Assembly: GCA_903859705.1 (NCBI GenBank)
Contig: CAIONQ010000107.1
Location: 1-64,000, forward strand
Reading direction: 5' to 3'
Source: an uncultured Chthonomonas sp.
GTDB taxonomy: Bacteria > Armatimonadota > Chthonomonadetes > Chthonomonadales > Chthonomonadaceae
Length of the DNA stretch: 64,000 nt
Shown: in pieces, positions 49,022 to 51,855 of the stretch
How positions within the stretch are numbered: position 1 is the first letter of the stretch
Layout: each line of letters begins with the position of its first letter
The notes under the pieces: model-generated
Seen by the model: only the letters and a program-made list of their open reading frames with translations
Databases searched by the model: none
Told to the model about the DNA's origin: nothing
Made by a program: the position numbers and the translations under genes

Positions 49022-49151
49022 TAGAGCTGCCCACTGACATATGTGTCAGGGCAACGCATGTTTCTGGTTTCTCGGAATGATGTGAAATCCGCGGTCGACT
49101 CCCGTCGTTTTTACGTCAGCCGAGAAACCCTACAGCGTGAGGTCACCTCCC

Positions 49152-49697
49152 GTGGGAAATGATTTTAAAGACTTGTTTGGGGATTGGCCATCAGAACCAA
49201 ACCCAGAGCGTGGATATGCTTTTGACGACAGTGCGCCGGAGCTCGAAAATAGAACTCCCAGTCCACTGTCTGTTTCTGAATGCAGTGTAGTAAACGTGTA
49301 TGAAGTTTGCTACGAGAACCTTGACGGAGACACAAAGTCCTCGAGGACAACCTTTGTGTTATTACAGGATGATAATGGCCGAGAACTCCGGATATTTGTA
49401 ATGCCGGATATTGCCGTTGCTATCCAAAATGCACTGGAACACGTGGAACCTGACCGGCCATCGACACATGATCTTTTAAAGAATGTGATTGAATCGTTGG
49501 ACGCAAAAGTAACACGCATCACAGTGGACGACATGTGGCATGGAACGCCCTACGCCAAAATCTCGATAAACTGCCATGGTACAGAAGTAGAGATAGACTC
49601 CAGGCCGAGTGATGCTATTGCAATAGCGCTTCGGTTTAACGCACGTATTTTTGTAGCCGATGCTGTTCTGGATGCCAACGAGGCAGAGGCTGGATAG
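49152..49697 (+). CDS. DUF151 (bifunctional nuclease) family protein
   Basis: A 181-residue protein with the DUF151 core: RELRIFVMPDIAVAIQNAL, RPSTHDLLKNVIESL, TPYAKISI and DSRPSDAIAIALRFNA. Plant BBD and some bacterial relatives have been reported to cut DNA and RNA; in most bacteria the role is unknown. The N-terminal 40 residues are acidic and probably disordered. GTG 49152 with GAGGT eight bases upstream is preferred over GTG 49137. Confidence 0.85.
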   Translation: MGNDFKDLFGDWPSEPNPERGYAFDDSAPELENRTPSPLSVSECSVVNVYEVCYENLDGDTKSSRTTFVLLQDDNGRELRIFVMPDIAVAIQNALEHVEPDRPSTHDLLKNVIESLDAKVTRITVDDMWHGTPYAKISINCHGTEVEIDSRPSDAIAIALRFNARIFVADAVLDANEAEAG

Positions 49698-49723
49698 AGT
49701 GGGGGATGGACCCCACTCTATCC
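49692..49723 (+). terminator. terminator overlapping the DUF151 stop codon
   Basis: A perfect 13-bp stem, GGATAGAGTGGGG (49692-49704) with CCCCACTCTATCC (49711-49723), loop GATGGA. The left arm contains the TAG stop codon. The T-tract is weak. Confidence 0.7.
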
Positions 49724-50352: not shown

Positions 50353-51594
50353 ATGGCGTTTGTGGGATCTGCAACTATTTGTCGTAAAATTGCCTGTACA
50401 CTTTTCTGGCTTATCATTTTTACAAACCCGTCGCAAGCCCAGGTGCGCGGGCGCATTGCGAATGAAGGATTTCGGGATAGTCCGATTTATGGAAGTTTGT
50501 TTTTTGCAGGTCCCGCCAACCCTTCTTCACTGCCTCTGTATTCTCGCCATCCGAAAGATATCAGGTCGTTACAATGGACCGCTAAAGGAATACGACAGAC
50601 ATTAACTTTGATGCGTAATATCGGGTTGAATACCTTCTTTTTATCCTATTGGGGGCATGATGGCGAAACTGATAAATGGTCTCCAACGCTGATGTTCTCC
50701 CGCAGGCGATGGCCCGAGGATACTGGTACCTCAAAGTACTCTGATCTAGAACAGGTTACCGAAGTTAGATCGTTTTTTGGGGTAGCTGAGCAGAACCGCT
50801 TGTTTGTGTGCCCATTAATCGAGGTAAGTCCGGCAAATCGGTTTTGGAATGATTTTCCAACCAACTTAGATAATCTCGTTTCACGGTGTTCATGGTTGCT
50901 GGCTAATATGGGCAATCAGCCAAACTGGCTAAAGCTCTACGATGTAAATGGTGTTTCGAGGGTAGCCATTCGATTGATTGAGACGATACATGATCGTCCC
51001 ATTGATCCCGATGAGTTTGCGGCAGGGTTTGTACGCGCATCTGATGCCATATTCCGTAAGACGGGCTATCGAGTTGGGTTCATTATTGATCCAAAGTCTT
51101 TGCCCGGTTATGGTTCAGAATACGGCCCAACTGTTCCTGCGATGCTTGCATGTTCGGCGGTATTAGCGGTGGCTCCATACAATATATGTAATCAGGGAAC
51201 GGCCAGACCAGAAAGTGGCGTTCAGATTACTGAAGCTGACAGGTTAACCCATGCTCGGGATTTGTTAGCTAAATGGCAGCAGCCTGGCGTGCCTCTTGTG
51301 GTACCCATTATGCCTGGATATGATGCTCGGTATGTTTTCCCGGATGCAGGTGTTTTTGGGTTTAACGATAACTGGCGGCACCGAGAGAGGGAACTTGCAA
51401 TAGCGTTTGGTACTGCAGGCATTAATATAGACTGCTGGAATGGCTGGTCGGAGGGGTATGGTATCCCCCCTACCCTAGAGGCTGGCGATACGGATTTGAG
51501 GTGGGCAAAAGGATGCGTTGAGGCTTTGAAGTTAAAGTTTAAAAAACAAAAAGGGATCTTGCCTTCTAAAGAAAAGAAGGCAAGATCCCTTTGA
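50353..51594 (+). CDS. secreted GH99/GH71-like glycosidase-type protein
   Basis: A 413-residue protein with a signal peptide (about 1-29, ending NPSQA). The TIM-barrel-like body contains GLNTFFLSYWGHDGETDKW and ends in INIDCWNGWSEGYGIPPTLE, the WN.W.E...I.P pattern of GH99, GH71 and related endo-acting families. A catalytic assignment is not possible by eye. The gene looks richer in A/T than its neighbours. Its last 15 codons (KKQKGILPSKEKKARSL) are spelled by a terminator hairpin that serves the opposite strand. Confidence 0.68.
   Translation: MAFVGSATICRKIACTLFWLIIFTNPSQAQVRGRIANEGFRDSPIYGSLFFAGPANPSSLPLYSRHPKDIRSLQWTAKGIRQTLTLMRNIGLNTFFLSYWGHDGETDKWSPTLMFSRRRWPEDTGTSKYSDLEQVTEVRSFFGVAEQNRLFVCPLIEVSPANRFWNDFPTNLDNLVSRCSWLLANMGNQPNWLKLYDVNGVSRVAIRLIETIHDRPIDPDEFAAGFVRASDAIFRKTGYRVGFIIDPKSLPGYGSEYGPTVPAMLACSAVLAVAPYNICNQGTARPESGVQITEADRLTHARDLLAKWQQPGVPLVVPIMPGYDARYVFPDAGVFGFNDNWRHRERELAIAFGTAGINIDCWNGWSEGYGIPPTLEAGDTDLRWAKGCVEALKLKFKKQKGILPSKEKKARSL
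51550..51592 (-). terminator. terminator for the minus-strand genes, inside the 3' end of the GH99-like gene
   Basis: A perfect 17-bp stem, 51550-51566 with 51576-51592, and a 9-nt loop. Read on the minus strand it is followed by TTTTTGTTTTTT, a classic U-tract. Read on the plus strand it encodes the C-terminus of the GH99-like protein and ends in its stop codon. Confidence 0.88.
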
Positions 51595-51645
51595 TTATAC
51601 AAACCGGCTTAAACCCGCGTATGGTCCGAGATTGACAAAGTGCCA

Positions 51646-51855
51646 CTACCCGATAACGCGTGTTTCTATTTCCTGAAGCTTGTCGTAACAGTCCGTAAGA
51701 ACTTGTTTCAGGTGCCGATGGTCTGTTTCGGCGATGGATTCGTGCTGAATGTCCCCGTTGCGGAACTTCCATAGTGCTGCCGCAGCTACAATACCTGCAG
51801 CGGCAGCAGCTATACTGGCACCAATCAGTATGGCCGTTCTTTTTTCAGTTGCCAA
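51646..51855 (-). CDS. small single-pass membrane protein
   Basis: A 69-residue protein: short basic N-terminus, an Ala-rich membrane segment (about 8-29) and a charged helical tail (LKQVLTDCYDKLQEIETRV). Start codon TTG 51855, with only a weak ribosome-binding site. The tail's heptad pattern suggests a coiled coil. It lies 53 bp downstream of the response regulator gene and shares its terminator. No family is recognised. Confidence 0.55.
   Translation of the reverse strand: MATEKRTAILIGASIAAAAAGIVAAAALWKFRNGDIQHESIAETDHRHLKQVLTDCYDKLQEIETRVIG

Follow-up and report, generated by a model that had tools for sequence, protein, structure and literature searches.

Terminators of convergent genes, transcript ends antisense to genes, and the movement of stop codons are all well known (PMC1852404, PMC3027695, PMC12207403, PMC7566282, PMC4161906, PMC7815308). 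Rho-independent terminators occur between convergent genes and are often bidirectional, as described for TransTermHP (PMC1852404) and on Term-seq in Zymomonas (PMC7566282). In Term-seq data, 3′ ends lying antisense to a gene and near its end form a routine class (PMC7815308; PMC12207403), and convergent overlaps between genes arise by stop-codon movement (PMC4161906). Furthermore, dif/Xer sites are 28-bp elements located near the points at which the GC skew switches (PMC3025954). The present analysis concerns a locus to which each of these subjects is relevant.

The window, i.e., the whole 64,000-nt stretch of DNA that was analyzed, contains a weakly GH99-like gene whose last codons coincide with a hairpin of the opposite strand (Table 1). 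The reading favored here, with a probability of roughly 0.7, is that a newcomer GH99-like gene landed against a pre-existing terminator and that its C-terminal tail is terminator sequence.

Table 1. Features of the locus, in order of their position in the window.
Feature	Coordinates	Strand	Remark
Bifunctional nuclease domain gene	49137..49697	+	Convergent neighbor beyond dif in 10/11 relatives
Putative dif-like site, ACGTCCGATAA TACATG GTATGTGATAA	50157..50184	+	Upstream of the GH99-like gene
Weakly GH99-like protein gene, 413 aa	50353..51594	+	Last 14 codons are hairpin
C-terminal codons (21) past the last shared Leu	51529..51591	+	Last 14 are hairpin
Predicted terminator U-tract, TTGTTTTTTAAA on the − strand	51538..51549	−	A-tract within the + strand gene
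Predicted intrinsic terminator hairpin	51550..51592	−	18 pairs, loop of 7; folding and random-sequence control
Small membrane protein gene, 69 aa	51646..51855	−	Family-restricted relatives in 12 other genomes
Receiver-only response regulator gene, 140 aa	51909..52331	−	

Anatomy of the Hairpin

The hairpin at 51550-51592 comprises 18 perfect Watson–Crick pairs, of which eight are G-C, and a loop of seven; its left arm is AAAGGGATCTTGCCTTCT (51550-51567), the loop reads AAAGAAA, and the right arm ends at 51592. It spans codons 400-413 of the ORF 50353-51594, i.e., the last 14, together with the T of the TGA stop codon, and the protein end encoded by this region is KKQKGILPSKEKKARSL. The original prediction had given this C-terminal sequence correctly and had rightly placed a perfect hairpin at the gene end; its stem of 17 bp and its estimate of 15 or so codons are here revised to 18 bp and exactly 14 codons. 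RNA folding yielded −31.1 kcal/mol for the + strand and −33.7 kcal/mol for the − strand (z about −8), and none of 200 shuffles folded equally well on either strand. A chance hairpin is very unlikely because, in 20 random sequences of 64 kb (Markov-1), the maximum length of a perfect stem ranged from only 8 to 11 bp. A dispersed repeat is ruled out, since the exact matches to the arm sequence GGGATCTTGCCTTC in the own genome are the two arms of this hairpin only; six further places match with one mismatch.

Assignment of the Terminator

On the − strand, where the gene order is response regulator and then small gene, the hairpin starts 53 nt past the stop codon of the small membrane protein gene, and the elements of an intrinsic terminator are present: a stable GC-containing hairpin, a U-tract directly after it, and a same-strand gene upstream. 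On the + strand, the sequence after the inner stem reads TTTGATTATA, and the terminator scan made no call on this strand. The GH99-like gene and the small gene do not overlap, their convergent stops (51594 and 51646) being 51 nt apart.

The small protein was found in 13 of the 61 genomes searched (own included), all belonging to one family, and its gene adjoins the response regulator in all 13; the regulator itself is present in 36/41 genomes. A hairpin with a T-rich tail occurs 3′ of the small gene in 8/13 genomes, own included, under a rule of at most −17 kcal/mol, at least three T in the next six bases, and a location within 140 nt of the stop, the energy cut-off having been fixed after the values were seen and the comparison being made without a shuffle control. 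No hairpin passing the −17 kcal/mol rule was found after the small gene in G003, G008, G009, G010, and G011, with G008 just missing it at −16.6. The hairpin is free of ORFs of at least 80 aa in G001, G002, G004, G012, and G014, where shorter ORFs over it include one of 51 aa on the same strand (G001) and one of 59 aa on the opposite strand (G014); in G006 and G015, it is touched by a 57-aa opposite ORF and by a longer same-strand ORF. The hairpin sequences differ among the relatives and the position recurs. A terminator there is thus independent of the GH99-like gene. The proposal that the − strand hairpin serves the response regulator and small protein genes is supported by its position, its U-tract, and the hairpins with T-rich tails in 7/12 relatives. 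The hairpin and the U-tract are hence predicted to be the intrinsic terminator of these two genes, at which their transcripts would end in the cell.

The position of the hairpin at the stop codon of the + strand gene and its nearly equal folding on that strand would also fit a 3′ mRNA-stabilizing structure or a terminator of the GH99-like gene itself, with an incidental − strand U-tract, but this is very unlikely, as the good U-tract is restricted to the − strand, ribosomes translating as far as the TGA would unfold the stem, and a T-tailed hairpin follows the small gene in those same 7/12 relatives without the GH99-like gene at that place.

The GH99-Like Gene and Its C-Terminus

No Pfam match, even at E 10, and no NCBIfam match was obtained for the 413-aa protein, and the cut-off of GH99 (PF16317) was not reached. 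A profile of three homologues matched a solved GH99 endo-α-mannosidase at a sub-threshold E of 0.1, and a 433-aa protein of the own genome (contig C28) is a weak paralogue (E 4.2e-4). The latter, encoded at L002 1279-2577, itself matches GH99 (PF16317, E 3.5e-16). The designation “GH99-like” is therefore retained in a weak sense, with the profile match and the paralogue bridge in its favor and the missing Pfam and NCBIfam matches against it. A structure predicted from two sequences was of low quality (mean pLDDT 37.2).

The gene is rare and of unusual composition. Homologues at E ≤ 1e-20 occur in 4/291 genomes of the phylum and those at E ≤ 0.001 in 5/101 relatives, own included in both counts. 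Its GC content of 47.1% is at the 0.9th percentile among 952 sampled own genes of at least 600 bp, and its GC3 of 43.2% is below the 1st percentile of the same genes, although the low GC may partly stem from the terminus region. In the same-genus genome G001, the GH99-like gene and the response regulator are on separate contigs, and the regulator there has a different gene as its downstream neighbor. The G001 copy ends 153 nt from the contig end, and its neighboring gene is one that we take to be tgt.

Two close homologues of the protein are 48-50% identical to it, and their final residues are not alignable. Past the last shared Leu, they carry 6 and 11 residues, compared with 21 in the window; seven of the latter, KLKFKKQ, lie between this Leu and the hairpin. 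The DNA around the homologues' stops was scanned for hairpins over the 120 nt upstream and the 153 nt downstream of each stop: within this range, no hairpin of at least 7 pairs was found in L004, and L003 has one weak opposite-strand hairpin, without a T-tail and away from the stop. The comparison of C-termini proposed with the original prediction thus came out as expected for a recruited tail, both close homologues ending before the tail with no hairpin of at least 7 pairs spanning their ends; a conserved homologous tail devoid of the DNA hairpin was encountered in neither (n = 2).

The possibility that KKQKGILPSKEKKARSL is itself functional, such that hairpin and tail are selected together, possibly as a bidirectional terminator, is quite unlikely. 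Some two-way potential comes from the A-tract and TTTGATTATA, which flank the hairpin on opposite sides, and in contig C1 of the own genome a predicted terminator hairpin lies within a homologous C-terminus; but the tail is missing in both close homologues, and on the + strand the U-tract is of low quality and drew no terminator call. The earlier suggestion of evolution under both constraints finds no positive evidence, and the homologues without the tail speak against it.

The dif-Like Site and the Locus in Relatives

The dif-like site was found with a pattern of 18 fixed bases read from relatives. Its arms are putatively of the XerC/XerD type. The site has two mismatches to the fixed bases and is the sole place in the own genome at ≤ 2 mismatches; at ≤ 3 mismatches, the own genome has four places, compared with three for a reversed control pattern, and 6/100 shuffles of the window contain a match. 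Among 21 genomes, 20 match the pattern at ≤ 3 mismatches. Because the reversed control also matches many genomes, the weight rests on the position and the low mismatch number. The 28-bp site is common to the relatives, and over 31 nt it is 93.5% identical to a site of the same-genus genome.

The comparison of the locus covered 20 fetched stretches, and 11 relatives have the response regulator and the bifunctional nuclease on one stretch. Ten of these 11 carry a dif-like site between the two genes, oriented like the regulator (the exception, G008, lacks a site; in G005 and G010, three mismatches have to be allowed). In G002, G006, G011, and G020, the site is on the stretch of the regulator in the same orientation, at a distance of 3.2 kb from it in G006, and no nuclease was seen on that stretch; neither site nor nuclease is on the fetched stretches of G004 and G015. 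The dif-like site is accordingly near the response regulator in 14 relatives spanning family and order, and the site in the window has the opposite orientation to that in each of the 14. In G001, the response regulator and the dif-like sites are on different contigs, and one site, 4.1 kb from the nuclease, is oriented like it. Because this site, too, points like the nuclease, the comparison suggests that the inversion of dif took place within the genus.

In one relative, the GC skew changes at the site: in G003, which is one contig of 3.4 Mb, the dif-like site at 480.6 kb coincides with a sign change of the skew in 20-kb samples (+0.027 at 460-480 kb and −0.080 at 481-501 kb), and 1/20 samples departs from the two-arm pattern (1376 kb, +0.014). 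Within the window, the skew is positive at 40-52 kb and negative at 52-64 kb, and the whole contig has no clean single switch.

No second dif copy was found in 51481-51720, nor elsewhere in the window at ≤ 3 mismatches. The best ungapped similarity to dif in 51481-51720 is 14/29, and 20 control stretches reach 13-16. A Xer-integrated mobile element (IMEX) with flanking dif copies was considered and rejected, no second copy having been found within the window.

Several further observations were made around the slot. G001 has three dif-like sites with two or three mismatches (L192 7069-7092 and 9574-9597; L193 5070-5093), and two of them share a contig at a spacing of 2.5 kb, which resembles the outcome of an element's integration at dif. 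In the slot that separates the small-protein gene from dif/nuclease, G006 has an 842-aa gene (L194 5062-7590) and G008 a convergent 355-aa gene (L210 4534-5601); since these extra genes are different, the slot varies between relatives. In the window, a perfect 13-bp inverted repeat with a 6-nt loop and the tail TAAGATGTATTT lies at 49692-49723 and includes the nuclease stop TAG (49695-49697).

Terminators and Opposing Genes in the Own Genome

A census covered 1,608,389 bases, or 25.8% of the own genome, with 1,296 called genes. The gene caller was home-made and set the GH99-like start at 50611, downstream of the 50353 used here, the 3′ end being unaffected. Among 128 hairpins with T-rich tails, 79 lie downstream of a same-strand gene; of these predicted terminators, eight overlap an opposing gene and five are wholly inside one. 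Stems of at least 16 bp occur in 31/79. Among the 42 predicted terminators with stems of at least 14 bp, three overlap an opposing gene and a single one, the 51550-51592 hairpin, is wholly enclosed. Long stems are thus ordinary in the own genome, and full enclosure of a long-stem terminator by an opposing gene is rare. Overlapping convergent gene pairs number 17/178 in the census. For predicted terminators with stems of at least 12 bp, 53/69 begin 5-38 nt after the stop, so the 53 nt measured here is on the long side, and 122/207 antisense frames are open through these 69; it would therefore be easy for a frame to read into a terminator.

A genome-wide rule by which terminators add tails to opposing genes is not supported, two of the seven other cases having been compared. 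One of them, on contig C1 (L091 1112-1141), is a 13-bp hairpin that is followed by a T-rich tail and falls within the codons for the C-terminus of a 765-aa protein. Homologues of this protein (47-67% identity; ten loci read, L254 dropped, L262-L264 left out) can be aligned as far as residues 761-765 of its 765, and the end of this protein is, by these alignments, homologous among relatives. In the C100 case, the hairpin covers roughly the final seven residues, and the alignments of the better homologues (~30% identical; four loci read) already stop at about residue 383-392 of 396.

Origin of the Terminator-Encoded Tail

The favored reading draws on direct observations, namely the anatomy of the hairpin, a neighborhood common to the relatives, a gene of unusual placement and composition, and two close homologues that have neither the tail nor such a hairpin. 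In the ancestor, the response-regulator side and the rho/bifunctional-nuclease side would have been convergent, with the terminator and dif separating the two. Later, a weakly GH99-like gene of foreign appearance would have been placed between terminator and dif, directed at the terminator, and dif would have been inverted. The frame of this gene, which is presumably translated to its end, would continue across the A-tract and then the entire hairpin, finishing at the TGA at the foot of the stem, the terminator supplying the last 14 residues of the protein and the first base of the stop codon. As no gene of the − strand is translated across it, the terminator should function normally on that strand; in the + direction, translating ribosomes would open the stem as far as the stop codon. 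The tail is most likely terminator sequence taken up by the newcomer gene, because the homologues end earlier and lack the hairpin and because the gene is rare, AT-rich, and set between the terminator and the dif-like site.

Several points weigh against this reading. It takes the terminator to be older than the GH99-like gene, which seems probable from the relatives, but 5/13 genomes have no strong hairpin under the rule given above and the hairpin sequences are unconserved, so that the terminator could postdate the insertion. The long distance of 53 nt is a further point. There is no second dif copy beside the hairpin, and with two close homologues only, whose ends are unalignable, variable ends may be normal for this protein. 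A plain insertion is opposed by the inversion of dif relative to 14 relatives, which makes the change more complex.

As for how the old gene end may have been lost, two routes to the newcomer's tail of nearly equal, limited probability are weighed. One is an insertion or inversion that cut off the gene end with a junction in the A-tract or the hairpin, whereupon the frame entered terminator DNA; the palindrome may have been a favored break site. The location of the gene between the terminator and a dif inverted against 14/14 relatives favors this route, since such an arrangement places a breakpoint somewhere between hairpin and dif, but no junction mark is visible, the similarity to dif near the hairpin being like that of the controls. 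The other, about as probable, is that the gene stood beside the terminator with a stop codon of its own, which a point mutation removed, and that translation then ran to the TGA. Thirteen of the 21 final codons are one base from a stop, the seven residues KLKFKKQ fit the range of 6-11 in the two homologues, and stop-codon changes are needed for convergent overlaps (PMC4161906); however, an earlier stop was seen in no close strain, and an insertion junction at this position would be indistinguishable from such a mutation. The lost stop proposed with the original prediction is accordingly a possible event; better supported is a step in the history of the locus, by which the gene came to lie between a terminator position and a dif-like site. 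A broader notion, that the dif slot is a recurrent site of landing and rearrangement at which the palindromic terminator docks newcomers and gives them a tail and a stop codon, is unlikely.

Comparison With Known Systems

A newcomer gene with a terminator-derived end would be a neat and mostly ordinary accident of genome evolution, and it leaves general principles unchanged. Its value is that of a synteny-ordered example in which a protein end is built from the regulatory DNA of the opposite gene. Furthermore, searches for terminators restricted to intergenic regions can miss good candidates, and gene gain beside dif is indicated in a little-studied phylum. A narrow literature search found no paper on terminator-encoded C-termini, which is no proof of their absence.

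Among the described systems, the locus resembles the dif/Xer sites in having a 28-bp site, the equivalent of which lies near a GC-skew switch in the relative G003; it is unlike the dif sites of PMC3025954 in that Armatimonadetes are not named in that paper and that the site here was found by a pattern from relatives. The antisense 3′ ends of Term-seq are similar in that the predicted end is opposite a gene and near its end, but the antisense classes sort positions, and terminator-made protein tails are not discussed where these classes are presented (PMC7815308; PMC12207403).

With the terminators of convergent genes, the locus shares a hairpin flanked by a U-tract and, on its opposite side, an A-tract, as well as the position between convergent genes; it differs in that the hairpin is wholly in the opposing coding sequence and that a good U-tract exists on one strand only. 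The work of Ju et al. (2019) is reportedly associated with bidirectional terminators between convergent genes. Finally, the convergent overlaps have in common with this locus a gene 3′ end that grows toward its convergent neighbor, whereas the extension proposed here would enter the terminator of the neighbor, with the two coding sequences remaining 51 nt apart.
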